Shown in pieces: positions 20,329 to 42,139 of a stretch of DNA of 42,565 nucleotides. The DNA lies in the IMG/VR virus record IMGVR_UViG_3300035125_000070, positions 1 to 42,565 of that record. One strand, 5' to 3'. Both the position numbers and the translations under genes were made by a program. Source of the stretch: a virus. The notes under the pieces were generated by a model, which saw only the letters and a list, made by a program, of their open reading frames with translations, searched no databases and was not told the DNA's origin. How positions within the stretch are numbered: position 1 is the first letter of the stretch; every line of letters starts with the position of its first letter.

Positions 20329-22544
20329 TACCTACCTCCTCCAGCGAGCTGACCAACAGGACCACGCTGAGGTGTTTGGATCTCTGTCTGGCCAGGAGAC
20401 TGCCCGGCCACGAGGTTGTCCATCACACCACCCATCATGGCCTGGAGAGCCTCCGCCGGCATCTGCTCCACCTCCTGCTGAGAGGGGATCAAATACTTGA
20501 ACCGACGCACGTCCAACTCTCTCGCAGCTACGTACATCCACCGCATGAAGTACTTCTTGTAGAGCATCGGATCGATAGCGGCGAGCTGATTCAGGATAGG
20601 CATGAAGAGCGACATCGCCTCCGTGAACTTCTGCTTGCGAAGCTCCGTGTTGATGAAGTCACTCGACGCCTGACTCAACCACACCACGCTCTGCCCAAGT
20701 TCATCAATCGTGATGATGTTGCTCGCCGACTCTCCTTCCAACATCTCAGGAGATACAATCCTCGGATTGAGAATGTTGTCTCCCTCGTAGATGGCTTGCT
20801 CGAAGCACGACTTCCATGTGAACTCAGCCAGGTAGTTCCAACCTGTCCTGTTCCAATCCTTGACCATCGCATCCACACCCACAGCGGACTGAGCCAGGAG
20901 CAACCGAGCCTTCTGAGCTGGAGATCGAGGATCGTCCTGCTCGAGCTGACCTTGAGAGTATGGCGTCACGCTCGTGCGGTTGGATGCCCTGGTCTGGGTC
21001 AACGGCAGGAGATGTCGAAGCAGTGCATCGGATACATGGATCGGATCCATCTGCTTGAACTCACCAATGTTGTTCACCCATCCAATCTTCCCTGGCCCGA
21101 ATCCTTCCACAAACGGATTTCCAAATCCACCAGCTTCCGGATGCACAGCCAGGAATGGGCGGAAGGTATCCATCGCCGCGCTGTCTAGGAACAGGTCCAC
21201 AGCATTCGACTCGAGGAAGTCCTCATTGATCAACCGAGCGCCGAACCCAAACCCGTAGTAGCTCTTTGGAGCATGACCCAACTTGAAGTGGATCCAATCT
21301 CGATTCTCATGGAAGTGTGGGTACGTAGCGGCCCGTAGGATCCTGCGTCCTGCAGGACTGTACTCAAACACACACCACTTTGGGATCAATCCTTTCGGAT
21401 CACTCGGAGTCTTGTATCCGTACTTGCAAGCGATCTTGTAGATCGCAAAGATATCCTTGTACGGATGAATGATCGCACCGCCAGTAAGATTCTCAGACTC
21501 AGTCCACCATTCGTACTCGAGTTCCTCGTTGTGACGGATGTTCAACTCTTCCTTCGTAGCCTCCTTGCTTCCCCCTCGAGCTGCTCCAATCACACCACGC
21601 TTGAAGGACCTATCTCGAAGAATGTCGTCGACAGCTTCCTTTCGATACCAGTTGTTGGCATCATCGGAAGCCAGCAGCCGAAGATCATTCGCAGTGTAGT
21701 AGAGTCTCCTCCCTCGGAACTTCAGCTCCTCGTCCGAATACACACCCGGAGGGATTAAGTGATCTTTCTTGTCCACATGAACGAACTTGAGTCCCTTACT
21801 CGTGAGTGTCTTTGCTTCAACCATCACACGAGCAGGTTGTCCATCCATCAGCTTTGCTCTGGCTACCTCGAGTTGTGTTGGATCCAGAACACGATCTTCG
21901 TCTCTTTCCAGACTCTCCGAATCCATGTACGTTTTCAAAGTCCTCTCCGGAACCTGCTCGTACATGGTCGTTGCATCAATAATGGCCGACCCATCCAACA
22001 GGAATTCGAAGATCAGCAGTGGATCAACCAATCCTTCGATCTTCAGATCCTGGGTCAGGACAGAATGGAGAAACCACTCCATCCGATGCATGACCTCGAT
22101 GTCCACTATGTTCGTCACTTCATCGTCGATGATGAAGAGAGGACGAGGGGACAAGATCGCTCGAGATAAACGATCGAGACCTTCAAGCACCTTGTCGCAA
22201 ACCAACCCCGACGTGAAGTTCGCGCTCACACCCATGGATGGGTAGAACTTCTCGACCCACTCAAGCATGTAGACGGCTCGGTACGTCGCCCACTTCTTCT
22301 TCATCTCCTCGTTGTACCGGACACACGCCTTCAGGTCCCGATCAAACCAACTGACCAACTCCTCCTCCTGCTCCTTGTTGATGTCAAGAGGAGGGAAGTA
22401 GTCCTCCAAGGTCACGAACCCTACATCCTCAATTCCAGGAGGACGAGCAACGTCTATGGCTTCAGCCGTTGCTATCTCACCAGCATAGGGCTCCAGTCCT
22501 CCAGGGATGTTTGTTCTAGCCGGCACAGCAAGATCCGTTGGCAT
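20328..22544 (-). CDS. Portal protein
   Basis: 738 residues, the expected size for a podovirus portal. Long helical and mixed segments, an N-terminal acidic region followed by WFDRDLKACVRYNEEMKKKW (~65-85), and ...PYSQGQLEQDDPRSPAQKAR (~525-545), resemble portal clip and wing sequences. A Gln/Pro/Gly-rich tail ends the protein. It immediately follows the large terminase with a TGATG overlap, the classical terminase-portal pair. AAGGAGGT lies seven bases before the ATG. Context and size are strong; there are no catalytic residues to check. Confidence 0.8.
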   Translation of the reverse strand: MPTDLAVPARTNIPGGLEPYAGEIATAEAIDVARPPGIEDVGFVTLEDYFPPLDINKEQEEELVSWFDRDLKACVRYNEEMKKKWATYRAVYMLEWVEKFYPSMGVSANFTSGLVCDKVLEGLDRLSRAILSPRPLFIIDDEVTNIVDIEVMHRMEWFLHSVLTQDLKIEGLVDPLLIFEFLLDGSAIIDATTMYEQVPERTLKTYMDSESLERDEDRVLDPTQLEVARAKLMDGQPARVMVEAKTLTSKGLKFVHVDKKDHLIPPGVYSDEELKFRGRRLYYTANDLRLLASDDANNWYRKEAVDDILRDRSFKRGVIGAARGGSKEATKEELNIRHNEELEYEWWTESENLTGGAIIHPYKDIFAIYKIACKYGYKTPSDPKGLIPKWCVFEYSPAGRRILRAATYPHFHENRDWIHFKLGHAPKSYYGFGFGARLINEDFLESNAVDLFLDSAAMDTFRPFLAVHPEAGGFGNPFVEGFGPGKIGWVNNIGEFKQMDPIHVSDALLRHLLPLTQTRASNRTSVTPYSQGQLEQDDPRSPAQKARLLLAQSAVGVDAMVKDWNRTGWNYLAEFTWKSCFEQAIYEGDNILNPRIVSPEMLEGESASNIITIDELGQSVVWLSQASSDFINTELRKQKFTEAMSLFMPILNQLAAIDPMLYKKYFMRWMYVAARELDVRRFKYLIPSQQEVEQMPAEALQAMMGGVMDNLVAGQSPGQTEIQTPQRGPVGQLAGGGR

Positions 22545-24481
22545 CAGAGGTACCTCCTTATCGCCTCACTCTTCGACTTCACAACCCCAAGAGCGGTCGG
22601 TGTGAACACAGATGCGAACTCCCGAAGCACCTTGGATTCCTCTCCTCTCCTCCGGGACGCATCATGGAATGCTGGGGTATCATGGATGATCTTCAAGGCC
22701 AGGGACGTAGCCATGACTCTGTCGTCTCGGTGACCTGGGGATGCCGTCAACTTCCCATTCGCCTCTGTGAAGTAGAGCATCTCTCCCAAGAGTTCGAGAC
22801 TGTGGAGCAGACAGTCCGTGTTCTTGAAGTCGAGTTTCAATCGACCGCACACGTCCTTCTTCTGGGGTTGCCGAGTCTCCCACCCAAACTCCCTGTGGAC
22901 TTGCTGACCACTGACCTTCTGCCTGTAGTAGAACCTCTTGTATCCTGTCTTCTCCAACTCCGCCTTGAGAGTTCCACCACAGGTGTTGTTCATCTCCGGT
23001 ATGATCAAGGCGTTGTTGTAGTACTGAGCGATCCAAACAGCGTACATGGCCGTCATCTCTTCATCGAAGACACCACCCCACTCCATGACTTGATCGCGTC
23101 GATGAGCGTCAAACACTTCGATGATGCTGTTGTCGCTCACATACTCCGATGTCCTCTTCCCCTCCGCTACATCAATCGTCAGGACATACGGATTGTTCTT
23201 CCTTGGTTCCTTGAACCTGAGCGCACATCCATCCTGAAGCCGGCCTTCCGACGTCCTGATGCACATTACTTTCCCCTGGTTCACGGAGAACGTCACAGTC
23301 TGTGGGACCACACACCTGTCTTCCAACTCCCTAAGACTAGCCACCAATCCATCTGGATGCTGGCTCATTAGCCCAACCAACCCATGGTACTTCTTCCTGA
23401 CAAAGTCGAGATCGTTCTCTTTCCAATCGATGAAGAACTTCAGATCAAGGATCCGACGCTTCACACGTTGGGAATCGAAGTAGAACGACCCAGTCACCAG
23501 GAAAGGTTCCTGTGGATTGAGGGGGAAATCCTGCTTGAACCTCTCGGTGCTCCCACCAAGAAGATCGATCTGATTGCGGCGGAACTTGATGTGCTCTGGC
23601 GTCAGGTCGTAGGCGTTGGCGATCTCCTTCTCTTCCTGTGTGTACTCGAGTTTCTCATTCAGCAAGAGAGGCTCTCTACAGTCAGGAAGATCCTTCCAGT
23701 TGATGAAGACGAAATCCCACCTTGATCCACGCTCCTGTGCCTTGTCACAGTCCTGAGCAAACTTGTTCATGCCATAGGCTGTAGACTCCTTGGCGATGAA
23801 TGCGAATCCTTTCCTTGGGATAGAGTTGAGGAGGGAAGTCTCTGCAGAGTCCGGGTCCCGCCACTTAGAGTTCTCGCTCATATGGCAAACCTGGATCGTC
23901 CCGGATGTACCTGGATTGGAATTCTCTCCCGAGTCCATCTCAAGCATAGATCCGTTGGACAGACGGAGCCCGGATTTCCCTTTCGGCATGGTGACTTTCT
24001 TTGGCTTGCCTGAGCACTGATCGTACTTGTAGAACCGCTCTACCATCCGAAAGATGTTGCTGGTGTGACTAGATAGATCCGCAATCAAGAAGACGTTTGT
24101 GTTCCCCCGAAACCTCATCATCCAATAGTCGAACGCCGCGAACAGAGTTGAGATACCTGCCTTCCTGTGCTTGAGTACGAGGACCTGGACTCGCTCCCAC
24201 AGCCTTCCCTTCAGCCTGGCCGCTACAGCGTCCGCAATCTGAAGTTGAACGGGATTGAGTCGAAACGGTATAATGGGAACTTCTTCGGCATCGCCTTCGA
24301 TCTTGCCTTCCTCGATGAACCCGTACTCTTCCATCCAGTAGATCGGATGAATCTTGCAGATCTCAGTCTCCGTCTTCGGGACATCCCACTCCTCCTTCGC
24401 CGCCTTGGATGCCAGCATCTTTGCGACCTTCTGGTCCAAGTCAGCCAAGTTCGGATAGAGGTCTCGGGGGAACTTCTGCAT
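22544..24481 (-). CDS. Terminase large subunit
   Basis: 645 residues from the ATG at 24481, which overlaps the stop of a 44-residue gene as TAATG; the open frame extends back to 24859 but that part is Arg/Ser-rich shadow sequence. ATPase: deviant Walker A LKHRKAGIST (~105-115) and Walker B-like IQVCHMSEN (~180-188). Nuclease: Asp in YVLTIDVAEG (~428), acidic IIPEMNN (~491-497), and RDDRVMATSLAL near 595-606. It packages DNA through the portal. All core motifs are visible. Confidence 0.85.
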   Translation of the reverse strand: MQKFPRDLYPNLADLDQKVAKMLASKAAKEEWDVPKTETEICKIHPIYWMEEYGFIEEGKIEGDAEEVPIIPFRLNPVQLQIADAVAARLKGRLWERVQVLVLKHRKAGISTLFAAFDYWMMRFRGNTNVFLIADLSSHTSNIFRMVERFYKYDQCSGKPKKVTMPKGKSGLRLSNGSMLEMDSGENSNPGTSGTIQVCHMSENSKWRDPDSAETSLLNSIPRKGFAFIAKESTAYGMNKFAQDCDKAQERGSRWDFVFINWKDLPDCREPLLLNEKLEYTQEEKEIANAYDLTPEHIKFRRNQIDLLGGSTERFKQDFPLNPQEPFLVTGSFYFDSQRVKRRILDLKFFIDWKENDLDFVRKKYHGLVGLMSQHPDGLVASLRELEDRCVVPQTVTFSVNQGKVMCIRTSEGRLQDGCALRFKEPRKNNPYVLTIDVAEGKRTSEYVSDNSIIEVFDAHRRDQVMEWGGVFDEEMTAMYAVWIAQYYNNALIIPEMNNTCGGTLKAELEKTGYKRFYYRQKVSGQQVHREFGWETRQPQKKDVCGRLKLDFKNTDCLLHSLELLGEMLYFTEANGKLTASPGHRDDRVMATSLALKIIHDTPAFHDASRRRGEESKVLREFASVFTPTALGVVKSKSEAIRRYL

Positions 24482-24615
24482 TACAGATACTTCTTCTTGT
24501 TCTTCGGAGGAGGAGGAATCGACTTGCGAGTTTCGGGCGCCTGGGTCTTCGTCCCACCCGCATGCTGTCTCATCCTCTTGTCCTTGTAGCTGGTCTTCTT
24601 CACGTCTCCTCTCAT
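24481..24615 (-). CDS. 44-residue basic protein before terminase
   Basis: Short gene with AAGGAGACGCAG before its ATG, overlapping the upstream stop (ATGA) and the terminase start (TAATG). The product is Lys/Arg-rich (RGDVKKTSYKDKRMRQHAGG) and ends with four prolines and a basic tail (KNKKKYL). Perfect start/stop coupling on both sides makes it convincing despite its size. Possibly DNA-binding; no family. Confidence 0.6.
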   Translation of the reverse strand: MRGDVKKTSYKDKRMRQHAGGTKTQAPETRKSIPPPPKNKKKYL

Positions 24616-25138: not shown

Positions 25139-25507
25139 CTACTTGATGTACATACCTCGTTGAGATGGACAGGGACGAGGCTTTGTCATCCTATCGTAAA
25201 CCAGCAGGAAGATAGACCCCCAACGTATGCAGGGATAGGCTTCCAGGTCTCTCCATGCTGAGCTGTTGTCAACGTCTGTAAAGAGAATGTGAGCTGTCTC
25301 CCAGAACACATCCTTGTCCCGCAACACCCAGAAACTGTAGACGGGATCATCTACCGTCGGCTTAATCCACAAGAAGTTGATGTCACACTTCCCCTCGTGT
25401 CCCTGAATCAACTCCTCTACATGCAAGGTGTCTCCAGCCACAGGGAAGGAATCCACAGACCCGATCGAGCAGGCAGCCAACTGTTGAGCCAAATAGAATC
25501 CGTCCAC
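25139..25507 (-). CDS. Hypothetical protein, 122 residues
   Basis: The GTG at 25507 follows AGGAGG by five bases. Residues 40-105 alternate strands and helices (CDINFLWIKPTVDDPVYSFW, DVFWETAHILFTDVD, WGSIFLLVYDRM), suggesting a small alpha/beta fold with two Cys and many Trp/Tyr. A GNAT-like or other small fold is conceivable but not supported by motifs. It is the last gene of the island-to-packaging junction. Confidence 0.5.
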   Translation of the reverse strand: MDGFYLAQQLAACSIGSVDSFPVAGDTLHVEELIQGHEGKCDINFLWIKPTVDDPVYSFWVLRDKDVFWETAHILFTDVDNSSAWRDLEAYPCIRWGSIFLLVYDRMTKPRPCPSQRGMYIK

Positions 25508-25516
25508 AACAACCTC

Positions 25517-26356
25517 CTACGACGACGACCCACGGAACGAGTTGCTGTACTTCTCATCAGGTCCACGAATCCGTTGGGTCCTAGCAACATTGACAGCATC
25601 ATCCAACTCAGACCCAAACCACTCATACTTTTCCACAGAGTCATGTTTCTTTGTCCAATTCGGACAGGACCTCTCAAGTCTTGCTGGGTTCGCCTTGCTC
25701 CTGAGCATGTTCGTCCCATACCAACCGATGTGTTGAATCCTAGACGCTTCTGGGTGAGCACGAACGGCTTTCTCTAAGACCCTGAAGTCATCGAACACGA
25801 AATCCCAACTCCAAGTCTTCTTCTCGTAGCATCCATTCTCAAGCCAGTAGGAGTAGAACCGATTCCACCTGTCTCTCCAAGTACCCCATCCAAACGTAGT
25901 GAACTTCGGATCAAATGTGATTCGCTCTTCAGGGTATCCACGAGGGTCTTCGCATCCACTATCCACAGTACACACCCGATGATCTTCCGAGAATTCATGA
26001 ATCATGTACCGCATCAAGTCCATGAAATCCTCACTAACAAGCATGTCATCTTCCAAGTGAACCACAGCGTCTAACTTGAAGATCGTAAACGCGTTTTGAA
26101 TCGACTCCACCACGTTGATAGGACATCCCACTCTTTTGCTTTGTACGTTGATCAGACCAGCGGATTGAGAACGTTCGACAAACTTCACGTAGAAATCAAA
26201 CAGCACCTGGTACGACTGTCGCACGTCGTGCATCGGGCCGTCAAGGCTTATGTACAACGGGACCTCCTCAAGCCCAGAACAATCAAGGAGATAATCAGTC
26301 GTTTTCCGAACCATTTCGGCTCTTCGGTAAGCCGTATAGACAATCCCAATCCTCAC
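25517..26356 (-). CDS. Glycosyltransferase, GT-A fold
   Basis: 279 residues if begun at the GTG at 26356, which has GGAG six bases upstream and lies just after the preceding stop; a GTG at 26368 would add four residues. The N-terminus RIGIVYTAYRRAEMVRKTTD is a typical GT-A first strand/helix. LDAVVHLEDDMLVSEDFM (~93-110) carries the DxD-type acidic cluster, and FGWGTWRDRW (~155-165) is seen in N-acetylglucosaminyltransferase-like and phage sugar transferases. It should transfer a nucleotide sugar; acceptor unknown. Confidence 0.75.
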   Translation of the reverse strand: MRIGIVYTAYRRAEMVRKTTDYLLDCSGLEEVPLYISLDGPMHDVRQSYQVLFDFYVKFVERSQSAGLINVQSKRVGCPINVVESIQNAFTIFKLDAVVHLEDDMLVSEDFMDLMRYMIHEFSEDHRVCTVDSGCEDPRGYPEERITFDPKFTTFGWGTWRDRWNRFYSYWLENGCYEKKTWSWDFVFDDFRVLEKAVRAHPEASRIQHIGWYGTNMLRSKANPARLERSCPNWTKKHDSVEKYEWFGSELDDAVNVARTQRIRGPDEKYSNSFRGSSS

Positions 26357-26358
26357 GA

Positions 26359-26973
26359 CTATCTCCACTGATTCTGCGTTGTGAATAGTACATTCGGACC
26401 AAGACTGAACTCCCGGTACACTTGATACCCCCGAGACTTCATCAGGTCCATGATCTCAGCCCTTCGTTCTGACACTTCCACGCAGAACATCTTGGTTCCA
26501 AGGATCTGGTATGGATTCCCAGGCATCCCCTTCAAGACACTCAGGTCCACGCCTTCCACATCGATCGAGATGAAGTCATAGGGACCAGGAAGGATATCGA
26601 GAATGTCAATCACGCGTACAGAGGCCACGTGGATCTGCTGGTAGGGGACCTGGGACTCCCACACCTTCTTGTGTGTAGTAGACGCAGTCGCCGTCGCACC
26701 ACCATGATCGAAGAACAGCCGGCATCCAACACTGCTTCCAATGAAGGCGTTGACGAGTTTCACCTTCTTGGAATCCTTGTACGTCTTCTGGAGCTGAACG
26801 AAGCATTGAGGACTCGCTTCCACACAGACGCCTGACCATCCCTGTTCAGCCAGCGCGTACGTGTTGCTCATCTCCTTCCCGTTGTAGGCGCCAATATCTA
26901 GAAACGTCCCAATGTAATCCTCGAAATAGCTGAGAACCTCCACGTCTTCACCCTGCTGAGAATACTTGCGCAT
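26359..26973 (-). CDS. FkbM-family methyltransferase
   Basis: 204 residues from the ATG at 26973, which overlaps the upstream stop (TGATG) and has GGAG seven bases before it. SAM-binding motif I is GTFLDIGAYNGKEMSNTYAL (~20-40), followed by SGVCVEASPQ (~46-55) and the later YDFISIDVEGVDLSVLKGM (~135-153), the FkbM signature. FkbM enzymes O-methylate sugars or small acceptors. Within the island it probably methylates a glycan residue. Confidence 0.8.
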   Translation of the reverse strand: MRKYSQQGEDVEVLSYFEDYIGTFLDIGAYNGKEMSNTYALAEQGWSGVCVEASPQCFVQLQKTYKDSKKVKLVNAFIGSSVGCRLFFDHGGATATASTTHKKVWESQVPYQQIHVASVRVIDILDILPGPYDFISIDVEGVDLSVLKGMPGNPYQILGTKMFCVEVSERRAEIMDLMKSRGYQVYREFSLGPNVLFTTQNQWR

Positions 26974-27605
26974 CAGTAGACTCCATACTCGCGCATGATC
27001 CACTTTTTCTTCTCCCTCTCCATGCGCTTGTTCCACATGCAATAGTGTCGAATCTTAGTCCGAGCCATACACTGGGACTCCCCATTCGCGTATCGAGTGA
27101 TCTGATCGAGTCCCATGTACGGGATGTAGGAAAGGTCTTCCTCCCACTTGTAGAGTTTCATGTGCGGAAGCGAGGGGTAGACTTGACCAGGCAGCGGATC
27201 ATGACCATCTCTAGTAGGCATCGGCTTCTCATACTTGAACATCATGGCCTTCTTCGGGCTGTGCCAGAACCCGTCGATCTCATCCGCGATGTTCTCCCCG
27301 ACCAGCATCTCGTCCTGGTCCAGGGCCAGGACCATGTCCGGTCGAATGGAATCCAGCATCCTAAGATTTCTCTCGTGATATGTGTCCCTCCTCCAAGGGC
27401 ATTGGGTTCGTCTCACCTTTATGATTTTTCGACTCTTCTTACAGTGGGATAGGATGAATGGAAGTTTCGATAACCGAACGGTCTTCATGTCAATCCGAAC
27501 ACAGACCTCTGAGCACAAGGATTCCATCGCCTTCAGGCACAACCTCCACTTCGGGAAGTCTCCAATCAACATGATGCCGGCGATCCTCAATGTTTTGGTC
27601 CCCAT
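26973..27605 (-). CDS. Glycosyltransferase-like protein, paralogue A
   Basis: Up to 210 residues. The ATG at 27605 has no SD site; a TTG at 27590 would overlap the upstream stop as TTGA and give the start MRIAGIMLIGD, closer to its paralogue at 28905-29540, so it may be the true start. RPDMVLALDQDEML (~90-103) is the acidic metal-binding region, and QVYPSLPHMKLYKW (~142-155) is shared with the paralogue. The N-terminus is GT-A-like. Sugar specificity unknown. Confidence 0.6.
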   Translation of the reverse strand: MGTKTLRIAGIMLIGDFPKWRLCLKAMESLCSEVCVRIDMKTVRLSKLPFILSHCKKSRKIIKVRRTQCPWRRDTYHERNLRMLDSIRPDMVLALDQDEMLVGENIADEIDGFWHSPKKAMMFKYEKPMPTRDGHDPLPGQVYPSLPHMKLYKWEEDLSYIPYMGLDQITRYANGESQCMARTKIRHYCMWNKRMEREKKKWIMREYGVY

Positions 27606-28159
27606 TCTGAAGCCAAGTCAATCTTCCTTCCTACAAACGACGATAGGTCATGTTGCTGCTTCTGTATATCACAACCGTAACAGAACCAAAACGGATGGAC
27701 GTGAGTCGTGATCTGAGTCATCTTGTGAGCAGCCGCGTGCAAGGCCTTCGTCACAGTCTTGAACCTACCATTCCGTATGTGAGACATCGCCATGGACATC
27801 GGATTTCGAATGCAGCAGATCCACTTCACATCTTCGAACACCTTCTTGTAGCACGGCAACATGAGAGAGATCCGAGGATCCTTCATCCCATAGGGAACTC
27901 TCTTCTCAGACTCCCTCATCGCCCGATACATCTCCAACTTTCCCATCAACCAAGAACTATCAACGGGATCACTATTCGTCGTCTTCCAGTTGTTCCCCTT
28001 CCGGCGAAGAGCCTCTTCGTTGATATCCAACAGAGGATAATCCTCCCAATGGTTACAGCCTGTCTCTCTCACCCACATCGGGATGCCGGCGTCGTGTAAC
28101 GCCTTAGAGATGAACCTCGTACCACACCCACCTAATCCAACGATGATGACAGTTCTCAC
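27587..28159 (-). CDS. Sulfotransferase-like protein
   Basis: 190 residues. The GTG at 28159 overlaps the upstream stop as GTGA with GGAG six bases upstream; a TTG at 28171 is weaker. VIIVGLGGCGTRFISKAL near 4-21 is a 5'-phosphosulfate loop-like P-loop. KDPRISLMLPCYKKVF (~92-107) followed by VKWICCIRNPMSMAMS (~110-125) matches the 3'-phosphate-binding Arg and Ser of PAPS-dependent sulfotransferases. It would sulfate a sugar of the island's product. A nucleotide kinase-like P-loop protein is the alternative. Confidence 0.7.
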   Translation of the reverse strand: MRTVIIVGLGGCGTRFISKALHDAGIPMWVRETGCNHWEDYPLLDINEEALRRKGNNWKTTNSDPVDSSWLMGKLEMYRAMRESEKRVPYGMKDPRISLMLPCYKKVFEDVKWICCIRNPMSMAMSHIRNGRFKTVTKALHAAAHKMTQITTHVHPFWFCYGCDIQKQQHDLSSFVGRKIDLASEWGPKH

Positions 28160-28908
28160 GTCTTGCTCCAATGAAAGTCATTCGGATCACAATCGAAGGG
28201 CGCCCATCTCGTCCACTTCGGAAGAGAGAACTTCTCTAAGAACTTCCCACCAGTGTAATGCTGCACGACAACATCCGGATCCAGCTTCTCTGCCTCGAAC
28301 ATCTTCTTGGGTGCCTTGGATACCATCAAGTCGTTCAGATTCTTGACAGCGCAGGCCAGGCAAGGCATCTCCCTTCCTCGACCGAACTTCTCCCAGTATG
28401 AACGCCACAACTGAAAGAACGTTCGAACAATGCCGTTCTTCCGAAAGCAGATGAACGCTCCGTTGTACACAGTCAAGGGAAGTTGAACACCAAACATCTT
28501 CATTGCCCGAGCGTAGATATTCAGAACCCTATCACCCATCCTCCACTCTATGAACTTGTTCAAGACAACGTCGGGAACAACCTCCACAGCTCCCTGAGAT
28601 AGTCTTGGCTCATCCAACGCATCGAACGCAGCTCCAATACCAGGTCTTTGGATGATCGAATCACAATCCAAGTACAACGTCTCATCGAACGGGGTGATGT
28701 TCACCATGCGAGTCTTGTAGTCCCGATTCTCCTCTGTCTTCGCGTTGACCCTACAGACCTTCGTATTGTCTGGTACACTCAAATCCCCATGAAGATTCGT
28801 CACCACATAGAATGGATAGTTCGTGTTTTTCCTAGAGATCCGCATGCACGCCGCTGCGATCTTCCAGTACTCCTCCCCAAACACTACGTACAGGATTCCA
28901 CGCTTCAT
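28156..28908 (-). CDS. Glycosyltransferase family 8-like protein
   Basis: 250 residues. FDETLYLDCDSIIQRP (~75-90) has the DxD metal site in the GT8 context. VYNGAFICFRKN (~147-158) fits the NxG(A/V) motif after it, and DVVVQHYTGG (~219-228) fits the C-terminal HxxG(x)xKPW-like region. It has no obvious membrane segment, so it is cytoplasmic. The ATG overlaps the upstream stop as ATGA; the SD is weak, consistent with coupling. Confidence 0.72.
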   Translation of the reverse strand: MKRGILYVVFGEEYWKIAAACMRISRKNTNYPFYVVTNLHGDLSVPDNTKVCRVNAKTEENRDYKTRMVNITPFDETLYLDCDSIIQRPGIGAAFDALDEPRLSQGAVEVVPDVVLNKFIEWRMGDRVLNIYARAMKMFGVQLPLTVYNGAFICFRKNGIVRTFFQLWRSYWEKFGRGREMPCLACAVKNLNDLMVSKAPKKMFEAEKLDPDVVVQHYTGGKFLEKFSLPKWTRWAPFDCDPNDFHWSKT

Positions 28909-29540
28909 GGTATTCCGAGGACAGCCTGAATGTCATAGCGTTTCCGAATCCAGTCCTCTTTCTCCTTCTGAAGTTTCTTCGTGTACATACACCAATGATT
29001 GATCTTCGTCCGAGAGACATACTGAAAACTCTTCTTGACGTATTGGACGATTCGAGCCCGTCCCTGATACGGAAGATACGTCAGACCAGGCTGCCACTTG
29101 AATGCCCGCATGTGGAGAAGAGATGGGTACACGTAGGGAAGCTGACGGCCATCATCCGTCACCATCTTGAACTCGAACATGATGGCTCGTTTCGTCGGCA
29201 TCTTCCAGAACCTACGAAGCTCCTTCCTGAATGGAGTCTCAAACGTCTCATCGTGGCACTGAGTCAAGACGATATCAGGCTCAAGATCATCCACCATCCG
29301 AAGCAAACTCTCGTGCCACTTCCCTACCTTCCATGACGTCTCTGCAATCCTCAGCTTGATCAACTTCCCGCGGAAGAATCTATCCCCATGGTGTTTCAGA
29401 AACTTGTAGACATCCCTATCCCCGTGCTCCATGTCGAACTCCACACAGATCCCGTCACAGAAGTAGGGCAGCTTCTTGAGAGTCTTCTCCCAGAATGGGA
29501 ACCGCGTCATAGCAACCGTCGAGATGACCTTGAGTCTCAT
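28905..29540 (-). CDS. Glycosyltransferase-like protein, paralogue B
   Basis: 211 residues, clearly related to the product of 26973-27605: both have HE..LRM near 75, PD(M/I)VL followed by an acidic cluster (TQCHDETF here), VYPSL.HM..(Y/F)KW, Y(I/L)PY.G, and a closing TKI.H.CM segment with a basic helix. Here the usual LDQDE acidic motif is replaced by TQCHDE, so activity or metal use may differ. ATGA overlap with the upstream gene. Confidence 0.6.
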   Translation of the reverse strand: MRLKVISTVAMTRFPFWEKTLKKLPYFCDGICVEFDMEHGDRDVYKFLKHHGDRFFRGKLIKLRIAETSWKVGKWHESLLRMVDDLEPDIVLTQCHDETFETPFRKELRRFWKMPTKRAIMFEFKMVTDDGRQLPYVYPSLLHMRAFKWQPGLTYLPYQGRARIVQYVKKSFQYVSRTKINHWCMYTKKLQKEKEDWIRKRYDIQAVLGIP

Positions 29541-30679
29541 ATGGCAGCCAGAGCCTCCTGAAAGAGCTCGAAGTCAGGACGGTCGAACGGGATCTCCACT
29601 TCACCCCACTCGATTGCCTCGTCCTTTTTCACATCAACAAGGAGCTTCACTCCCCTAGCCAAGCAGATTGGGAGACCAAAGTTTGTAGTGGTGTTCCCGA
29701 TCATTCCATAACAGTCGTATCCTCCCAACCCATCTAACTCATGCCCGGCTGGAAGATCTTTCTTCGCGTAAGCATAGACGTTCGTTACGAACCCATGTCG
29801 CGGGCGAAGAAGAGACTTCCCCTCAGCGGCGTCCACAATGCATTGCATAGACTCGACATGACAGAGATGGTAAGGACGGTAGAACAAGTAGTTCGGACCA
29901 TCTCCCATCTTGTAGTACTTCATCAAGCGACGCTGATACGGATCCCCACACCGACCAATCACGAACACCCCACCACCAGGTTCAGCATCAAGGATGTAGT
30001 CCACATACGGATACGAAAGATCACGATCGAACAACTCGAGTGCATCACGGACCGATGATGTCCGATATCCCTGCATACCTCCAGGAGGAACCTTCAAGTC
30101 GTAAGCGTTCGCCACCAGAGACATCTCGATGTTCATCTTGGTCCCATCCGTCATGGCCGTAGCTTGCTCGTAGTCCAGATCCCTCTTGTCCGCTTCTGGT
30201 TTGATCTTCTCTGGGTTGGAGTACTTGTCAAGGAAGCCCTTCATGTTCCCAGTCATGACCAACGAGAAACCCCAGTACCGAACCTCATCAATCAACTTCG
30301 CCAGGACAGCCGGCTGGTCCCCATCACAGCTTGTATACGTCACCCCGTTCTTCGCGGCGATCTTCATCAAGGCAGGACCAAAGATCAGGTCTGCTTCCGC
30401 GTTCATCATGATGAGATGTCGACCTCTATGAAGAGCTTCCACATCAAAGGTGGCAGCCTCAAGAATTGAGGAAGTAGCATCGATCACTACATCCGCGTGA
30501 GCGTCAAGGAGATACTCCATCTTCTCATATGAAGGAACTCGATAGTTCTTAGATACCGCCTCGCACTTCTCCTTGTCCTTGTCAATGATACCCACACACC
30601 GCAGGCCAGGAGTGATAGCAATCTGATGAACAAGACCACGACCCATACAGCCTACACCAATCACGACGACGTTGATCAT
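29537..30679 (-). CDS. NAD(P)-dependent oxidoreductase with SAF-like C-terminus
   Basis: 380 residues from the ATG at 30679 (TGATG overlap). A Rossmann fold opens the protein with VVVIGVGCMGRGLVHQIA (~4-21), followed by an acidic IIDKDKEK end of strand two (~32-39). CDGDQPAVLAKLIDEV (~115-130) and the C-terminal DLPAGHELDGLGGYDCYGM (~325-345) fit homoserine dehydrogenase-like enzymes with SAF domain found in sugar and amino-sugar clusters. It probably makes or modifies a sugar precursor; the substrate is not evident. Confidence 0.65.
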   Translation of the reverse strand: MINVVVIGVGCMGRGLVHQIAITPGLRCVGIIDKDKEKCEAVSKNYRVPSYEKMEYLLDAHADVVIDATSSILEAATFDVEALHRGRHLIMMNAEADLIFGPALMKIAAKNGVTYTSCDGDQPAVLAKLIDEVRYWGFSLVMTGNMKGFLDKYSNPEKIKPEADKRDLDYEQATAMTDGTKMNIEMSLVANAYDLKVPPGGMQGYRTSSVRDALELFDRDLSYPYVDYILDAEPGGGVFVIGRCGDPYQRRLMKYYKMGDGPNYLFYRPYHLCHVESMQCIVDAAEGKSLLRPRHGFVTNVYAYAKKDLPAGHELDGLGGYDCYGMIGNTTTNFGLPICLARGVKLLVDVKKDEAIEWGEVEIPFDRPDFELFQEALAAI

Positions 30680-31344
30680 CACATCCCCCTCAGTTCAATG
30701 ATGGAATCCTCAACCTTCGAATCGTTGCTGTAGCAGACTTCAACATTCGGCGACCTTAAGGAAATCCCGTACTTATGAAGAAGATAGCTCAAGCAACTTT
30801 GATCATGTCGGTGGGATTGAAATCCAGGAGCAGAACTCTTCCCTGATCCTCCCTGAAACGAAATCCCATCCCGGCTCAATTCAAACATCTCTCTCAGAAT
30901 GTTCATTGCCGTCTGATTGTACTGATTGAATCCGATGACGCCGCCCAGGCACTGAGGAAACGTTTTCGCTTCTTCGATCGAACACCCCAACTGATTCAGA
31001 CAATCCTCTGAAGTGAAGTGATGTTCCCAACACGCATTACAGAACGCAATGACACCCTCATCCCATATCACTCGAAAGAATCGATCCAAAGGCTTCCGTA
31101 TAACACAGCTCGCATCCAACCACAGAGCACAGTCGTATCCCCGTTCGAAGGCAGTCTGTATAGCGTAGTACTTGAAGGCGTAGGGAACCTCCTGGTGTGT
31201 GGGACTGCCCGGGGGATACCTTCCAGCCCAGAGGATGCAGTCCTTCTTGTAGACTTCCTCCAGGGAGAGCTTCAACCTGGCCTGGCCCTCCATGTACCTC
31301 TCCCGGCCAGGACAGGCGAAGTTCACGACGCAAGTCTTCCTCAT
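30679..31344 (-). CDS. Glycosyltransferase-like protein
   Basis: 221 residues from the ATG at 31344, which overlaps the upstream stop as ATGA and has a GGAGGGG site; a longer frame to 31377 is not needed. TAFERGYDCALWLDASCVIR (~60-80) has a WLDAS motif where GT-A enzymes have DxD. Such phage and bacterial proteins carry a similar plan, with GGVIGFNQYNQTAM (~130-145) following. Acceptor unknown; the single Asp at the metal site is atypical. Confidence 0.55.
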   Translation of the reverse strand: MRKTCVVNFACPGRERYMEGQARLKLSLEEVYKKDCILWAGRYPPGSPTHQEVPYAFKYYAIQTAFERGYDCALWLDASCVIRKPLDRFFRVIWDEGVIAFCNACWEHHFTSEDCLNQLGCSIEEAKTFPQCLGGVIGFNQYNQTAMNILREMFELSRDGISFQGGSGKSSAPGFQSHRHDQSCLSYLLHKYGISLRSPNVEVCYSNDSKVEDSIIELRGM

Positions 31345-32042
31345 TCTATCCCCTCCGCCAACTCGCAGTGCCGGCACAATATGTCTCTCGACTCGTCATC
31401 CAATCCGTCTCTCACGATGTTCCACTCAGTCTTGAATAGGGACTCATAGCTATCTGTTTCAAGGTTCCCAAGGACATGCTTCATTCCATAGTCCATGCAA
31501 CACAGGACAACATCTCCATTCGGCATGAGGACGTTGTGGTCGAGATTCCTCCAGGAGGAAGCACAACCAATCCTGCCCTTCCTCTTGGGACTATCAAACA
31601 GATTCCCTCCACGACTCAACACAGCTCCCGGCTTGTGTGGATTCCATGTCGTCGCTGAAGGAATCGTCCTCTGACACATCTGGACTATCTCCCATGAAGC
31701 CCCCTCAACACGATGGATGCAAAAGTATTTGAAGGGGATATGCGAGATCCGATCGATGTCCTCGAATGTCATGCCGATGGTAGTAGTGTGGACAGTCAAC
31801 TTGAACCCCAACCTGTGAACACAGAGGATCATGTCTGTACATCGAGGATGTGACCACGGCTCTGACATTCCAGCAAAGACGATCCCGACATCAATAGGTA
31901 TCTTACCCATGAACAGATGGAACTTGCTGAGTTTCATCGTCTTTGGCTCAAGGTCCTTGTATCTCGAAACGAGAACATCCTGTGGGCAGTAATCACACCT
32001 CACAGGACAGCCAACCTTTGTTGTGATCTCGAGAATTCTCAT
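31341..32042 (-). CDS. Radical SAM/SPASM-type enzyme
   Basis: 233 residues from the ATG at 32042 (ATGA overlap; upstream codons in frame lie in the neighbouring gene). GCPVRCDYCPQ (~12-22) is the CxxxCxxC [4Fe-4S] cluster motif that binds S-adenosylmethionine. The C-terminal quarter has CASSWRNLDHNVLMPNGDVV, LCCMDYG and a final CRHC, a shortened SPASM-like auxiliary cluster. SPASM enzymes modify peptides, sulfatases or sugars by radical chemistry. Shorter than most (~350+). Substrate here unknown. Confidence 0.78.
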   Translation of the reverse strand: MRILEITTKVGCPVRCDYCPQDVLVSRYKDLEPKTMKLSKFHLFMGKIPIDVGIVFAGMSEPWSHPRCTDMILCVHRLGFKLTVHTTTIGMTFEDIDRISHIPFKYFCIHRVEGASWEIVQMCQRTIPSATTWNPHKPGAVLSRGGNLFDSPKRKGRIGCASSWRNLDHNVLMPNGDVVLCCMDYGMKHVLGNLETDSYESLFKTEWNIVRDGLDDESRDILCRHCELAEGIE

Positions 32043-32854
32043 TCCGGTTTTCCGAGATACTGCTTCAGATGTTTCGGGATCTCCACCCACTCCTGCCGAG
32101 TGAAGTGTCGGACCTCCGGCCAGATTTGCCAGAGTGTGAACATATGGCAATCCTTCACCCCCGGCTTCAAGGTTGGAAGAACATCCCGAACCCACTTGTC
32201 AAAGTCGTACAGCTTATCACCGTAGTGGCTCGACTGGATGTGCTTTCGAACCGTATCCTCCATAGAACGCCTAGTGGATGTGAAGTGGAAGATCCCAGGT
32301 AGGTTCATGTCCGCGGCCGTTATCTCTGGTGTCCTACCGGCTAGGAACTTCTCAGAGGTCTTGATGTACACCTCCAACCCATCCCCAATGCTCCCCACAG
32401 GATAGCCGGGGAACCCTATGATGGGCACAGACTTCATGCAGACAGCCTTCGGGTTCCCTTTGTCCAAGAACATGTCCAGCCTCTGTAAAGCACTACGTCT
32501 CCAGATCTCATCAGCGTCCAGGATGAGAGCGTGTTCCACGCCGGCCCGCTTCATCACGTCCATGGAGTAGTTCCGGATCTCAGTCTCTGCCTCCAAGTAG
32601 TGTCCCTTCTTCTTCTGTGGAGTTTCAACCCGCTCGAAGTGAACATGCATCTTCATCCGCTTCAATCTGTTCACCACAGTGTTGATTCCAGCCAAATCCT
32701 CCGAAGATACCTCAGTTCCATTCCAGTATGTCGTAGGAACGAAGAAGAAGAAATCCTTCATCTTCTGAAGGACCAAGGACTGGCAGGCATCCATCAAACA
32801 GAATTCATCCCGAACAGCTAAGCAACACGCCGCGTATCGTCTCTTGTATCCCAT
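32039..32854 (-). CDS. Glycosyltransferase-like protein with DADE motif
   Basis: 271 residues. The N-terminus KRRYAACCLAVRDEFCLMDA resembles GT92/GT2-like phage transferases that begin with a strand, then a charged residue. EHALILDADEIWRRSA (~107-122) is the DxD-type site. The rest is mixed alpha/beta with His/Trp-rich C-terminal sequence (KLYDFDKWVRDVLPTL). AGGTGACTC precedes the ATG. Cytoplasmic; donor sugar unknown. Confidence 0.68.
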   Translation of the reverse strand: MGYKRRYAACCLAVRDEFCLMDACQSLVLQKMKDFFFFVPTTYWNGTEVSSEDLAGINTVVNRLKRMKMHVHFERVETPQKKKGHYLEAETEIRNYSMDVMKRAGVEHALILDADEIWRRSALQRLDMFLDKGNPKAVCMKSVPIIGFPGYPVGSIGDGLEVYIKTSEKFLAGRTPEITAADMNLPGIFHFTSTRRSMEDTVRKHIQSSHYGDKLYDFDKWVRDVLPTLKPGVKDCHMFTLWQIWPEVRHFTRQEWVEIPKHLKQYLGKPE

Positions 32855-32857
32855 GAG

Positions 32858-33508
32858 TCACCTGCATCTGTAGTAGTACATGATGTTGTCACCAAGTAGG
32901 ATCTCCTTCTTCAAGAGACCCGACTGATAGATTGCATTACTCCACTCAGCATCCTCACCAACATCCTTGTCTGGAAATCTGAACTTCTTGGCTATCCCCG
33001 ACCGGATCGGATTGAGATGATTCGGTGGTCGATAGTAAATACCTCCTCGTTCGAACCAATGATCCAACGTGATTGAATGAATGAATCGACTGACCTGGCC
33101 CTTCGACGTCATCTCCCCAACGATTCCAACACAGTCCAAGTCAGGGACTCTCGTTACCAAACTAACGATTTCTTTCAAATAGAAACCAGACACCCAATCA
33201 TCGTCGTCCACAAAAGCAACGTAGTCTCCCCTCGACGCTTCGAGTAGTGCATTTCTCTTCTCTCCAACAAACCTCCTACCATCATCCACAAAGATCACAA
33301 ACTCAACAGACTTGTCCACACCAGATGTCAATGCTTGATCAGCCAGGAACTTGAGCAGACCTTCTGCCTTTCTTCTTCTGTTGTCCAGTGATGCCACCAG
33401 AACACTGAAGACCTTCGACCCCAAAGTGATCTTTCTCCCGTCTACGGTAAACTGCTTCCCCGTGCTGATAAGCCTTTGGGGAGTTCTCCCGTCGGTATGT
33501 GTCGTCAT
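32858..33508 (-). CDS. Glycosyltransferase family 2
   Basis: Up to 216 residues. VGEKRNALLEASRGDYVAFV (~80-99) followed by DDDDW is the classical GT2 sequence before and at the metal-binding site, and VGEDAEWSNAIYQSG (~183-197) supplies the later catalytic ED. The first ~28 residues overlap the preceding gene; a TTG at 33424 would begin just before the first GT-A strand (KVFSVLVASLDNRRRK) and shorten the overlap from 170 to 86 bases. Either start leaves real overlap. Confidence 0.75.
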   Translation of the reverse strand: MTTHTDGRTPQRLISTGKQFTVDGRKITLGSKVFSVLVASLDNRRRKAEGLLKFLADQALTSGVDKSVEFVIFVDDGRRFVGEKRNALLEASRGDYVAFVDDDDWVSGFYLKEIVSLVTRVPDLDCVGIVGEMTSKGQVSRFIHSITLDHWFERGGIYYRPPNHLNPIRSGIAKKFRFPDKDVGEDAEWSNAIYQSGLLKKEILLGDNIMYYYRCR

Positions 33509-34340
33509 GAGGAAGCCCCCCGATGGAGTAGTGGTTGTGTTTGAAGACCAAATCCCACGCCGGAATGTTCACTCCCATGAGTCGCGCACGTTGTGTGAAG
33601 TCGTTGTCACCCCACACGCTGATATACTCGGGGTAGTACAGATACCCCGCTGATTCGTAGTACCCCCGAGAGAGAATCAGAATCGTCTGGATCGAATTGT
33701 CATAGGAGGGCTGAATCCCATCGTTCACTTCTAGGACCCACTGCCCATCCTTGTTCGACTTCCTCACACGCTTCTGAATCTCGAGATCCCAATGCAATGG
33801 ACACTCGAAGTCATCCGACACGTACAGCAAGACATCTCCTGTCGAGATCTCGGCGCCATTGTTCATCGCATCCACGACAGATCGGTTCTGATTAACCAGG
33901 ACCCGGATGGGGAAGTACCCAGCGATCTCTGCTACGACCTGCATGTAGTTCCTCGCATCGTCACTATCCAGGGACAGGATGTACTCCAACTCATTCAGGC
34001 CAGAGAACTTGTTGCACCATAGCTCCACGCACGCAGCGCAAAAGCTAGGCCGGCCTCGTGTAGGATGGACGATGCTGAACTTCTGTCGAACATGTCCTTT
34101 CGGCTTCACCAACCGAGGAGGCCAGGGCCATGCATCGTACCTGGGAGAGATTCTTGGAATCATGGTGGGAGGAGGCGGCGCACCGTGACGCTCGTGTCGT
34201 GCCCTACGAGTTACTCCAGATGGTGTCCGCCTCCTGTCCTTCATACGTTTGACCTCCGGGGTCCTCTCAACGAAGCTCAGGTACTCGGCTTTGTTCTTGA
34301 AGACGAGCTTCTTCCCCGTGCTCCGGTCAATATACCTCAC
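33339..34340 (-). CDS. Glycosyltransferase-like protein with N-terminal extension
   Basis: 333 residues from the GTG at 34340, which has GGAG eight bases upstream; a TTG at 34361 would add seven. Residues 1-40 (RYIDRSTGKKLVFKNKAEYL) form a small basic domain, 40-75 are Arg/Pro-rich linker, and the GT-A domain begins at FSIVHPTRGRPSFC. LDSDDARNY and VLLYVSDDFECPLHWD are the acidic motifs, and VWGDNDFTQRARLMG is the acceptor-side motif. Its last ~26 codons lie inside the following GT2 gene. Confidence 0.65.
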   Translation of the reverse strand: MRYIDRSTGKKLVFKNKAEYLSFVERTPEVKRMKDRRRTPSGVTRRARHERHGAPPPPTMIPRISPRYDAWPWPPRLVKPKGHVRQKFSIVHPTRGRPSFCAACVELWCNKFSGLNELEYILSLDSDDARNYMQVVAEIAGYFPIRVLVNQNRSVVDAMNNGAEISTGDVLLYVSDDFECPLHWDLEIQKRVRKSNKDGQWVLEVNDGIQPSYDNSIQTILILSRGYYESAGYLYYPEYISVWGDNDFTQRARLMGVNIPAWDLVFKHNHYSIGGLPHDDTYRRENSPKAYQHGEAVYRRREKDHFGVEGLQCSGGITGQQKKKGRRSAQVPG

Positions 34341-34364
34341 ACCAAAAACTCCAATCCCCAATCT

Positions 34365-35477
34365 TCATAACAGTTCCTTCGCCTTCTCTACGATCTCCTC
34401 TGGAGTGATCGAACCCAGCACCCTGCACCATTCGATCAGGGACTTCGGGGGAGACCCATCCGCGTCTTTGCATTGTTCGAACGGCAACACGAAGTTGTGA
34501 TCCCGGCAGGGGGCTGTTGGGCAGCACTCCGGGTGGAAGATCGGGTGGTTGTTGGTGTAGTACTTCGCGCGGTCATCAGGATGGAACACACCCCACAGGG
34601 AGATGATCGGCACGTTCGGGAAGCACGCGGCCAGGTGCATGATCGCCGAGTCAGGGCAGATCACTAGAGACGCCCGCTCCACGATCGGGATCAGCTCGCG
34701 GAAGTTCTTGGTCTTCTCGAGCATGTTGACCACGAGAGACGACATCCCATCGAAGATCCAGTCGTACTTCCCGTCAGGATCCACACCCACTACGAGGATC
34801 AGCTTGCCGGTCTCCTTGGCTAGGAGATTGAGCATCTTCTGTGCGAGCTTCGGTGGGTAGCATCGGTTCTCGTTCTTCGGACTCATGTGATAGACGATGT
34901 AGTCCGACGTCTTGAGATTCATCTCCTTGAAGACACGGTAGTCTTCCGGACGAGGGAAGATGCATGGTTTCTTCGCGGAAGGTGGAGCGTCGAAGATCCC
35001 TATCGTTGTGAAGAAGTAGTCGTAGCAGCAGGGCTGGTCTGGTTCGGAGTTGTTTTCGAGCATTCCCTCGTAGAAGATGTGGTAGTCGTACCCATGCAAG
35101 ATGGTGTCGAACAGCATTGGGACAGGCACGGCGGCTCCCCCAACATAAGGGTTAGCGTACCATAGTGGCAGAACCCCTTGCCGGCAATACAGATGAATCG
35201 TAGCATCTGGATACCTCCTCACAAGTTCTGCCGGAACAGAGCTGGCGATGAGCTGGTCACCCCACGCGTCGTGCCGGTAGACAACGACCTTCTTTCCGTT
35301 CAGGTCCTGACCAAAGTACTTCCGTTCGTACGAGTTGAATGAACTCCACCGCCACTGTGTGGTCGGTGTCTTAGAGATGAGCATCTGGCCTTCCCAATCC
35401 GTCACGACATATCGCGTGTAGGGCTTGAAGTAGGCGTAGTCAGTTATCACCACCTTGTTCGGCGTCACTATCTGCAT
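34365..35477 (-). CDS. Glycosyltransferase family 9 (heptosyltransferase-like)
   Basis: 370 residues. GKKVVVYRHDAWGDQLIASS (~61-80) is the GT9 N-terminal motif (R-x-D-x-x-G-D). VICPDSAIMHLAACFPNVPI (~270-290) followed by ISLWG is the second signature, where the LPS enzymes read D-(S/T)-x-x-x-H-(L/I)-A-A. A Cys-rich insert (HPECCPTAPC) follows. GT9 enzymes transfer heptose or related sugars onto lipid A cores, which hints at a Gram-negative host surface or a mimic of it. A GGGGGT site precedes the ATG; it overlaps the HTH gene by 38 bases. Confidence 0.82.
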   Translation of the reverse strand: MQIVTPNKVVITDYAYFKPYTRYVVTDWEGQMLISKTPTTQWRWSSFNSYERKYFGQDLNGKKVVVYRHDAWGDQLIASSVPAELVRRYPDATIHLYCRQGVLPLWYANPYVGGAAVPVPMLFDTILHGYDYHIFYEGMLENNSEPDQPCCYDYFFTTIGIFDAPPSAKKPCIFPRPEDYRVFKEMNLKTSDYIVYHMSPKNENRCYPPKLAQKMLNLLAKETGKLILVVGVDPDGKYDWIFDGMSSLVVNMLEKTKNFRELIPIVERASLVICPDSAIMHLAACFPNVPIISLWGVFHPDDRAKYYTNNHPIFHPECCPTAPCRDHNFVLPFEQCKDADGSPPKSLIEWCRVLGSITPEEIVEKAKELL

Positions 35478-36381
35478 CCATTACCCCCGTTCCGAATCGT
35501 TCCTCATACTTCGCTCGCCTCGCAGCGATTTCGCTCTTCATCATCTCGGTCTCTCGCTGTTCGGCATTCGCATCCAAGATCAGCTTCCTGCGTCGATGAG
35601 CAATCAAGTCTGCAGTCTTCGGATCCACCTCACCTGCCAAGAGACCATCAAGAACAACTCGGTCGGCCGCGTAGATGACTTCAGGACCGAGCTGCTTCTT
35701 TGCTTTTTGGACGTCTTTTCTTGTGACGTTTTGAATAATATCGGAAGAATCTACATGAAGAATCTCTGCAGTTTGGGCAGGAGTCCGGCCAACCGCCATA
35801 AGCATCGCAGCCTGCTGATAGATGCTTTCCGCGGACGTGAAAATCAATCGTGTGCACTCGTTCGTCCCCAGCTTCCCCGCTTCGATCACGGCTACTGCCT
35901 GCTTCGCGTGTTCCTTCACATCCTTGGCCAGGGGGACGGCTGACTTCATCCGCTTCTTTCGATACCGCTCTCTTCCTTTTTCGGCATGTACGGATCTCCG
36001 TAAGTTGTGCAAGGCCACCAGGCCACGAGGGTCCACTTTCCTCAGCTTCTGGTAGATCTTCTTCCTCACGGTTATACTGACTTGGTCCAACCACATGACT
36101 TTCTTCCGAGTCAGGAATTTGTCGGCGCTCTCGATCTTGTCCAAGTATCTCCGAAAGCTCGCTTGTCCCAATTTTGTGTAGAGACTTCCCCAGGGGTTTC
36201 TCCAGGAAACTTCTCCGCACCAGGATGAAGCCTTTCCCTTTCGTCCCCGCTTTCCGGTAGTCGGTACGGATCTTGAATGCGTTCTCACCGAAGAGCCAGT
36301 CGACTTTTTTGAGGAACGCGTAGAGCTGGGCGTGCCGGACTTGTTGGTTTTTCCCCGGTGGGATGACTTCGACGCCTTCAT
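35440..36381 (-). CDS. HTH protein, possible small terminase; joins the frame upstream by +1 shift
   Basis: This frame holds the credible C-terminal ~230 residues. From about 36180 downward: ADKFLTRKKVMWLDQVSITV, then a long basic helix, AMLMAVGRTPAQTAEILHVD (helix-turn-helix, ~35850-35760), LLAGEVDPKTADLIAHRRRK and an acidic tail. HTH plus helical oligomer region is the plan of small terminases, but it may be another regulator. The part above 36230 in this frame is Ser/Arg-rich and looks like shadow of the overlapping frame, so no good independent start is visible. Confidence 0.6.
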   Translation of the reverse strand: MKASKSSHRGKTNKSGTPSSTRSSKKSTGSSVRTHSRSVPTTGKRGRKGKASSWCGEVSWRNPWGSLYTKLGQASFRRYLDKIESADKFLTRKKVMWLDQVSITVRKKIYQKLRKVDPRGLVALHNLRRSVHAEKGRERYRKKRMKSAVPLAKDVKEHAKQAVAVIEAGKLGTNECTRLIFTSAESIYQQAAMLMAVGRTPAQTAEILHVDSSDIIQNVTRKDVQKAKKQLGPEVIYAADRVVLDGLLAGEVDPKTADLIAHRRRKLILDANAEQRETEMMKSEIAARRAKYEERFGTGVMDADSDAEQGGDN

Positions 36382-39526: not shown

Positions 39527-40162
39527 ATGAAGAAGCAGGCAAAGAAAAACGACCGCTCAGACTCGATCGTTGCTAAGTACGGCAAACGACTCCAGAACGT
39601 GTGCTCGCATGCATACGCGCGAGAGACTATGGCCGAGGATGTCATGGGCCTTGAAACAAAGCTCAAGGCCCTGAAGATCGACGTAAGGAAAGCCAAAGAA
39701 GCTTTCTTCGCGTCCTACGGTGACCTGGCCAAAGACATCATCGGCTATACCAAGATCAAGGAAGTCAAGCCCACCGACATCAACGCCTATCATAAGGCGT
39801 TGAGAACGGTAGCCGCAAAGACTGATCCGCCGTACGGTGGATACGCTCCCCGCACGTTCGATAAGCTCTTGGCCGAAGCAAGAGCTTTCAAACGGTTCGC
39901 CCCGGACGCGCGCGCGACAAACGCACGCGGCAAGGGCAAGGGCAAGGGCAAGGGCAAGGGCAAGGGCAAGGGCAATCCACCCGCAAAGCATGGTGACGAA
40001 GGTATGCAGTTGCCAGTCCCATACTGTGATACACTGGAGCAGTACGAGGCTATCACGGCAAACGTGCTAAGTCGGTTCGACCGCAATGACGTAGTGCGCA
40101 CGTTTCAGGACGCTCTACGTCACGCGGGGTTCACGAGCCCCGTAGAGATGGCGGCCAGTTAG
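39527..40162 (+). CDS. Early protein with Gly-Lys repeat linker
   Basis: 211 residues from the ATG at 39527 (GGGAGGATGCC upstream); an in-frame codon at 39491 lies before the SD site. Residues 1-130 are helical and Lys-rich (METKLK-like helices, [20 protein letters not shown]). Residues ~133-149 are seven GK pairs encoded by seven GGCAAG copies. The C-terminal 60 residues are a small mixed domain ending [20 protein letters not shown]. Not recognised; the basic linker suggests nucleic-acid contact. A strong terminator follows. Confidence 0.65.
39929..39970 (+). repeat. Hexanucleotide microsatellite, seven GGCAAG units
   Basis: Seven perfect copies, then GGCAAT. They encode (Gly-Lys)7 and keep the reading frame whatever the number, so slippage would change linker length, not frame. 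The antisense strand is also open over it. Confidence 0.9.
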
Positions 40163-42132: not shown

Positions 42133-42139
42133 TATGGCA

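Follow-up and report, generated by a model that had tools for sequence, protein, structure and literature searches.

A BtrN-like Twitch radical SAM enzyme, probably a sugar-tailoring oxidoreductase, encoded in a hypervariable phage glycan locus

What does a short radical SAM enzyme do among the glycosyltransferase genes of a phage? The window analysed here is a viral sequence of 42,565 nucleotides (IMG/VR record IMGVR_UViG_3300035125_000070). An initial annotation had placed at 31341-32042 an open reading frame of 233 residues with CxxxCxxC, NGDVVLCC and CRHC motifs, and had described it as a radical SAM/SPASM enzyme whose substrate could be either a sugar or a phage mini-protein. The frame and its motifs were all recovered, on the minus strand (Table 1), as CPVRCDYC (C12, C16, C19), NGDVVLCC (C181, C182) and CRHC (C223, C226), with 11 residues ahead of the first cysteine; the plus-strand reading of the same interval contains five stops. 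The minus-strand frame is unbroken, and the base composition of the gene resembles that of its neighbours. Both junctions are of the form ATGA, the ATG start lying on the stop of the upstream gene GTc and the gene's own stop on the start of the downstream gene GTd. A longer start, GTG at 32195 (284 aa), was rejected because the relatives begin at about the 233-aa start, which overlaps the upstream stop. The protein is short yet within the range of its family, whose domains have a median length of 274 residues and a minimum of 192. The annotated gene thus exists and is intact.

Relatives were collected by a viral scan, in which 407 stretches encoding relatives were matched and 80 kept, and by a cellular scan, which gave 78 loci in bacterial and archaeal genomes. 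The resulting set held 151 unique domains, of which 150 had C12, C16 and C19 conserved; C160 and E61 were conserved in all 151, C181 in 150, C223 and C226 in 149, R144 in 144 and C182 in 143. Within the core family of 127 relatives from viruses, bacteria and archaea, all seven cluster cysteines were present in 124; position 144 was R in 124, position 182 C in 119 and position 183 M in 114. A loss of the three radical SAM cysteines among relatives, named in the initial annotation as a sign against the assignment, was thus not observed. Its other doubt, that the frame might be a degraded fragment of a host gene, is contradicted by the overlap of the start codon with the upstream stop, by the unbroken frame and by the retention of the seven cysteines in the core family. 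More broadly, it is extremely improbable that the gene is a functionless one of host origin, whether decayed or passively acquired. No copy was found in three related phages (see below), so the lineage can do without it, but the frame is intact, it is coupled by ATGA on both sides, all cofactor residues are kept, the base composition is neighbour-like and the fold is predicted with confidence.

We then assigned the domain class. SPASM domains carry the seven-cysteine motif CX9-15GX4C-gap-CX2CX5CX3C-gap-C (PMC6231123), and the Twitch domain is their shortened form, which has a single auxiliary cluster (PMC6231123, PMC9012708). Pfam matched the protein to SPASM above the cut-off (E=3e-7) and to Radical_SAM below it (0.0075). 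Membership in the radical SAM superfamily agrees with the CxxxCxxC cysteines C12, C16 and C19, with a partial TIM-barrel core in the predicted structure and with the top PDB matches, which are all radical SAM enzymes. The SPASM motif is incomplete: only C160-X15-G-X4-C181 and C223-X2-C226 are present, and the chain stops at residue 233. Because the protein has four of the seven cysteines of a SPASM domain, and these four (C160, C181, C223, C226) are those of a single auxiliary cluster of the BtrN type, the C-terminal domain is, as judged from its cysteine pattern, a one-cluster Twitch domain and not a full SPASM domain. The radical SAM part of the initial assignment therefore stands and its SPASM part does not. 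The four cysteines are predicted auxiliary-cluster ligands, and R144 and C182 are predicted active-site residues.

The structure prediction that had been suggested as a check was carried out with AF2, using 58 sequences as input. It gave a confident model (pLDDT 96, pTM 0.92). The top Foldseek match was BtrN (4m7t; TM 0.77 over the query, E 1.5e-11); the second protein was SpeY, also a Twitch dehydrogenase (TM 0.48). VIA re-alignment ranked BtrN first as well (Z 19.7 over 219 residues, rmsd 3.0), the next family reaching 15.3. A sequence profile search matched BtrN across the full length (E 2e-14), the next match being DesII (0.001), and SpeY and other Twitch sequences could not be aligned to the protein by sequence. 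No solved structure of a family member was found. In the alignment, C160, C181, C223 and C226 correspond to BtrN C169, C187, C232 and C235, and R144 corresponds to R152, an arginine with a catalytic role in BtrN.

BtrN, the 2-deoxy-scyllo-inosamine dehydrogenase of butirosin biosynthesis (PDB 4m7s, 4m7t), thus shares with the phage protein a radical SAM barrel of minimal size (about 235-250 aa), the single auxiliary cluster with four aligned cysteines (predicted in the phage protein), the aligned arginine and a structural match over nearly the full length. SpeY (PDB 7wzv, 7x0b) shares the Twitch architecture but is larger (about 300 aa) and matches more weakly. Identity between the phage protein and BtrN is only about 16-18%, and F188-E189, which lie beside a cluster ligand in BtrN, are replaced by C182-M183, so that the substrate pocket is expected to differ. 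The contexts differ too: BtrN belongs to a butirosin/2-deoxystreptamine gene cluster, whereas the phage gene lies in a glycan operon and its relatives in phage and bacterial glycan loci. The enzyme resembles BtrN in architecture but not in pocket or context, and the F188-E189 replacement in particular means that it is not BtrN itself. BtrN oxidises the aminocyclitol 2-deoxy-scyllo-inosamine (PMC9012708), and according to a similarity network of Twitch and SPASM enzymes the fold does not fix the reaction (PMC6231123).

The genes around the radical SAM gene form a ten-kilobase operon on the minus strand, running from 35477 to 25517 and covering about a quarter of the 42.5-kb genome (Table 1). 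Its content agrees with the initial description of an enzyme lying among glycosyltransferases, with an oxidoreductase and a sulfotransferase nearby, the latter being a match below the cut-off. Homologues of GTd recur beside homologues of GTa, GTb and the FkbM methyltransferase in other viral contigs, and its assignment as a probable glycosyltransferase draws on this recurrence as well as on the motif.

Table 1. Genes of the glycan operon and its borders in the window, in order of transcription
Feature	Position	Strand	Basis and relatives
TerS-side flanking gene, HTH-like by eye, upstream island border	35440..36381	-	homologues in the same place in L194 and L196
GT9-like glycosyltransferase, first cassette gene	34365..35477	-	Pfam Glyco_transf_9 1.7e-8; kept in three related phages
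GTa, glycosyltransferase family 2	33339..34361	-	Pfam GT2 6.5e-8; PHROG glycosyltransferase
GTb, glycosyltransferase family 2	32858..33508	-	Pfam GT2 6e-7; PHROG 2.3e-26
GTc, probable glycosyltransferase, directly upstream of the radical SAM gene	32039..32854	-	DADEIW motif by eye and context; no Pfam match; 45% identical homologue in the same operon place in L163
Twitch radical SAM gene	31341..32042	-	233 aa and stop, read from 32042 to 31341
GTd, probable glycosyltransferase, directly downstream of the radical SAM gene	30679..31344	-	WLDAS motif by eye; no Pfam match
NAD(P)-binding oxidoreductase, DRL (DXR-like) catalytic domain	29537..30682	-	Pfam DRL_cat 1.2e-40, GFO_IDH_MocA 2e-8; 54% identical in L163
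GTe, probable glycosyltransferase, paralogue of GTg	28905..29540	-	no family match above cut-off; matches the same L163 gene as GTg
GTf, probable glycosyltransferase	28156..28908	-	YLDCDSI motif by eye; no Pfam match; 50% identical in L163
Sulfotransferase-like protein	27587..28171	-	Pfam Sulfotransfer_3 8e-4, below cut-off; no match in L163
GTg, probable glycosyltransferase	26973..27605	-	paralogue of GTe
FkbM-type methyltransferase	26359..27042	-	Pfam Methyltransf_21 8.9e-14
Probable glycosyltransferase, GNT-I/MGAT2-like	25517..26368	-	Pfam GNT-I 0.0012, below cut-off
Terminase large subunit, downstream island border	22544..24484	-	PHROG terminase; 50% identical in L196

Among GenBank phages, the DRL oxidoreductase is matched only by Listeria phage records (about 33% identity). 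Elsewhere in the window, positions 41500-42541 hold long 21-base tandem repeats that encode heptad-like VSGIQGKVDNIQGD repeats, which may point to a fibre or surface protein of coiled-coil type. A perfect hexanucleotide repeat, GGCAAG in 7.8 copies at 39929-39975, lies in an ORF and gives a GKGKGK run; it might mediate phase variation or encode a basic linker.

Searches with GTc alone or with the terminase alone returned no close relatives of the window phage. With the DRL gene as bait, a related contig of 49.5 kb (L163/L194) was found, which shares the upstream border gene and the terminase with the window and keeps nearly the same operon order at 30-55% identity, GTb and FkbM having moved. 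The radical SAM gene is nowhere on this contig, and the sulfotransferase is absent too; GTc and GTd are neighbours, separated by about 80 bases with a 30-codon ORF. This ORF (L163:4524-4620, MKTPWPERKREQFEDKYGERIMENFKDYEF) has an ATGA overlap with GTc, ends at GTd and fills the radical SAM slot, perhaps as a small gene, perhaps as a remnant. The radical SAM gene was not found in L195 or L196 either, the absence being less certain for L195, whose cassette runs off the contig end. In L196 the terminase and portal are 50% identical to those of the window, and of the island's genes only the first and the last have homologues there. Across the four related phages (the window, L194, L195 and L196), the GT9 first gene and the last gene (25139-25507) are kept and the interior is exchanged. 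Because related phages lack the gene and the interior is exchanged, this region, bounded by the TerS-side gene and TerL, is a hypervariable glycan locus with the radical SAM gene as an optional part. The DRL oxidoreductase was considered as an obligatory partner and ruled out, since L163 has DRL without radical SAM and no other radical SAM locus has a DRL homologue. Two related phages whose operons otherwise match, one with the gene and one lacking it, amount to a natural experiment, in which a comparison of the glycans would tell the enzyme's action directly.

The choice between sugar and peptide was examined through the neighbours of relatives. In 46 viral loci, 115 near genes were tallied, with 126 genes more than 3.5 kb away on the same contigs as a control. 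The near genes comprised 12 GT2, 8 DUF6445, 6 Methyltransf_23, 5 FkbM, 3 epimerase and 3 fucosyltransferase genes; among the families matched by at least two of the distant genes there was no glycosyltransferase family. In several phages a GT2 gene directly follows and overlaps the radical SAM gene, and in one (L009) a sulfotransferase takes that place. In another (L011) the radical SAM gene lies directly behind a fucosyltransferase gene in an apparent sugar-biosynthesis cassette. Bacterial relatives adjoin GT2 and capsule genes, and in T4-like phages a Twitch radical SAM domain is fused behind an FkbM methyltransferase. L004 and some other viral relatives lie in the head module, with no annotated glycosyltransferase nearby.

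A peptide maturase acting on a small phage-encoded protein, in the manner of RiPP enzymes, would have precedents, as peptides are the substrates of many SPASM enzymes and of some Twitch enzymes (SkfB), and ChlB, anSME and SuiB come after BtrN by fold. Such a role is nevertheless very unlikely. The co-occurrence check proposed with the mini-protein idea was run on 423 small ORFs within 3 kb of the radical SAM gene in 47 divergent loci, and none recurred in at least three loci. The protein has no RRE leader-binding domain, a domain common though not universal in RiPP maturases, and no N-terminal extension that could hold one. The association with glycosyltransferases and methyltransferases also extends over distinct lineages. 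Of the two proposed substrates, the mini-protein is thus left unsupported, and the sugar is favoured by the operon, by presence and absence in related phages, by the neighbour tallies, the FkbM fusions and the L009 sulfotransferase, and by the likeness to BtrN.

With the intact gene, its cysteines, its optional place in the operon and the glycan association observed, and the fold as modelled, we consider that the protein probably tailors a sugar of a glycan encoded by the phage, as a Twitch radical SAM oxidoreductase of the BtrN type. It would probably be an optional, exchangeable tool that oxidises or inverts one sugar carbon. By analogy with BtrN chemistry, the [4Fe-4S] cluster of CxxxCxxC would cleave S-adenosylmethionine to a 5'-deoxyadenosyl radical, which would abstract hydrogen from a sugar carbon that bears a hydroxyl; the sugar may be free, nucleotide-linked or already transferred. 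R144 would help to remove the hydroxyl proton, and the electron would be accepted by the one auxiliary [4Fe-4S] cluster, leaving a keto sugar. The product would then pass to the co-translated glycosyltransferases, the DRL-like oxidoreductase, the sulfotransferase and the FkbM methyltransferase.

Alternatively, C182 might give a hydrogen atom back from the other face and yield an epimer. NeoN reportedly inverts a sugar carbon with a single cysteine in this way. That the enzyme is a Twitch epimerase and not a dehydrogenase, C182 donating hydrogen to the substrate radical and so inverting the carbon, is a tentative but distinctly possible reading: the conserved C182, standing in place of BtrN F188, would be compatible with it, but the best two solved relatives, BtrN and SpeY, are dehydrogenases, and a Cys-Cys pair is common in SPASM-type motifs, which counts against C182 as a sign of epimerisation. 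HygY and NeoN are radical SAM sugar epimerases of aminoglycoside pathways. HygY is described as a Twitch epimerase dependent on one cysteine, whose mutation reveals a latent dehydrogenase activity (cited in PMC10991966); C182 is a candidate counterpart.

For the sugar-tailoring oxidoreductase, the likeliest target would be an acceptor in the cytosol, for instance a virion protein, since transmembrane-like segments are missing from all cassette proteins and the operon lies in the packaging/structural module; this is the weakest step of the proposal. The enzyme could instead serve superinfection exclusion by changing a glycan on the host surface (O-antigen or capsule), a role often ascribed to phage glycosyltransferases. 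The bacterial relatives beside capsule and GT2 genes would fit, and so would the radical SAM cassettes placed in the host-recognition region of pelagimyophages in the genome descriptions of PMC7029224. We regard this as somewhat unlikely here, the cassette having no membrane protein and hence no flippase or GtrA/GtrC-like gene, and its place between the TerS-side gene and TerL suggesting late expression.

The enzyme belongs to a widespread, uncharacterised viral family that is BtrN-like in architecture. Viral and cellular sequences are intermingled in a tree of 110 rows, with 14 label changes, at least 6 of them forced by well-supported branches; judging from this phylogeny, the gene has therefore passed between viruses and cells on several occasions. 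The protein of the window has no close relative in the tree and no firm placement there. Phage radical SAM genes near glycosyltransferases have been reported before (PMC7029224, PMC5332604, PMC7150976), only the superfamily being named in the passages that deal with them. Those of marine myophages lie in host-recognition and auxiliary regions (PMC7029224, PMC5332604), in PMC7029224 within a glycosyltransferase-rich region as in the window; unlike the present analysis, the corresponding passages of these two papers contain no Twitch family, structure or operon comparison.

Most of the known radical SAM sugar enzymes come from antibiotic pathways. The present data add a family of compact BtrN-like proteins associated with glycan genes, which has 407 viral matches and also occurs in a range of bacteria and archaea. 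A bolder reading, which we think rather unlikely, is that these miniature Twitch radical SAM enzymes form a widespread family, so far undescribed, of sugar epimerases or dehydrogenases and act in phages as an interchangeable module for stereochemistry, such that gain or loss of this one gene in a conserved glycan operon changes one sugar centre of the virion glycan. If true, it would be a route by which phages vary their surface.

Fusions of TPR, FkbM methyltransferase and Twitch radical SAM domains occur in L003, L032, L040, L048, L082 and other T4-like phages, often with a DUF6445 protein following, and are labelled in GenBank as FkbM methyltransferase only. One example is WJZ48257 of Synechococcus phage DSL-LC02. 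Its radical SAM domain, behind the TPR and FkbM domains, is homologous to the window's protein (about 37% identical, all cluster cysteines kept), whereas in the window the two functions are separate genes of one operon. Finally, five loci of Lachnospiraceae and Clostridia (L100, L104, L109, L112, L123) carry two or three diverged Twitch radical SAM copies each, of about 400 aa with an N-terminal extension.
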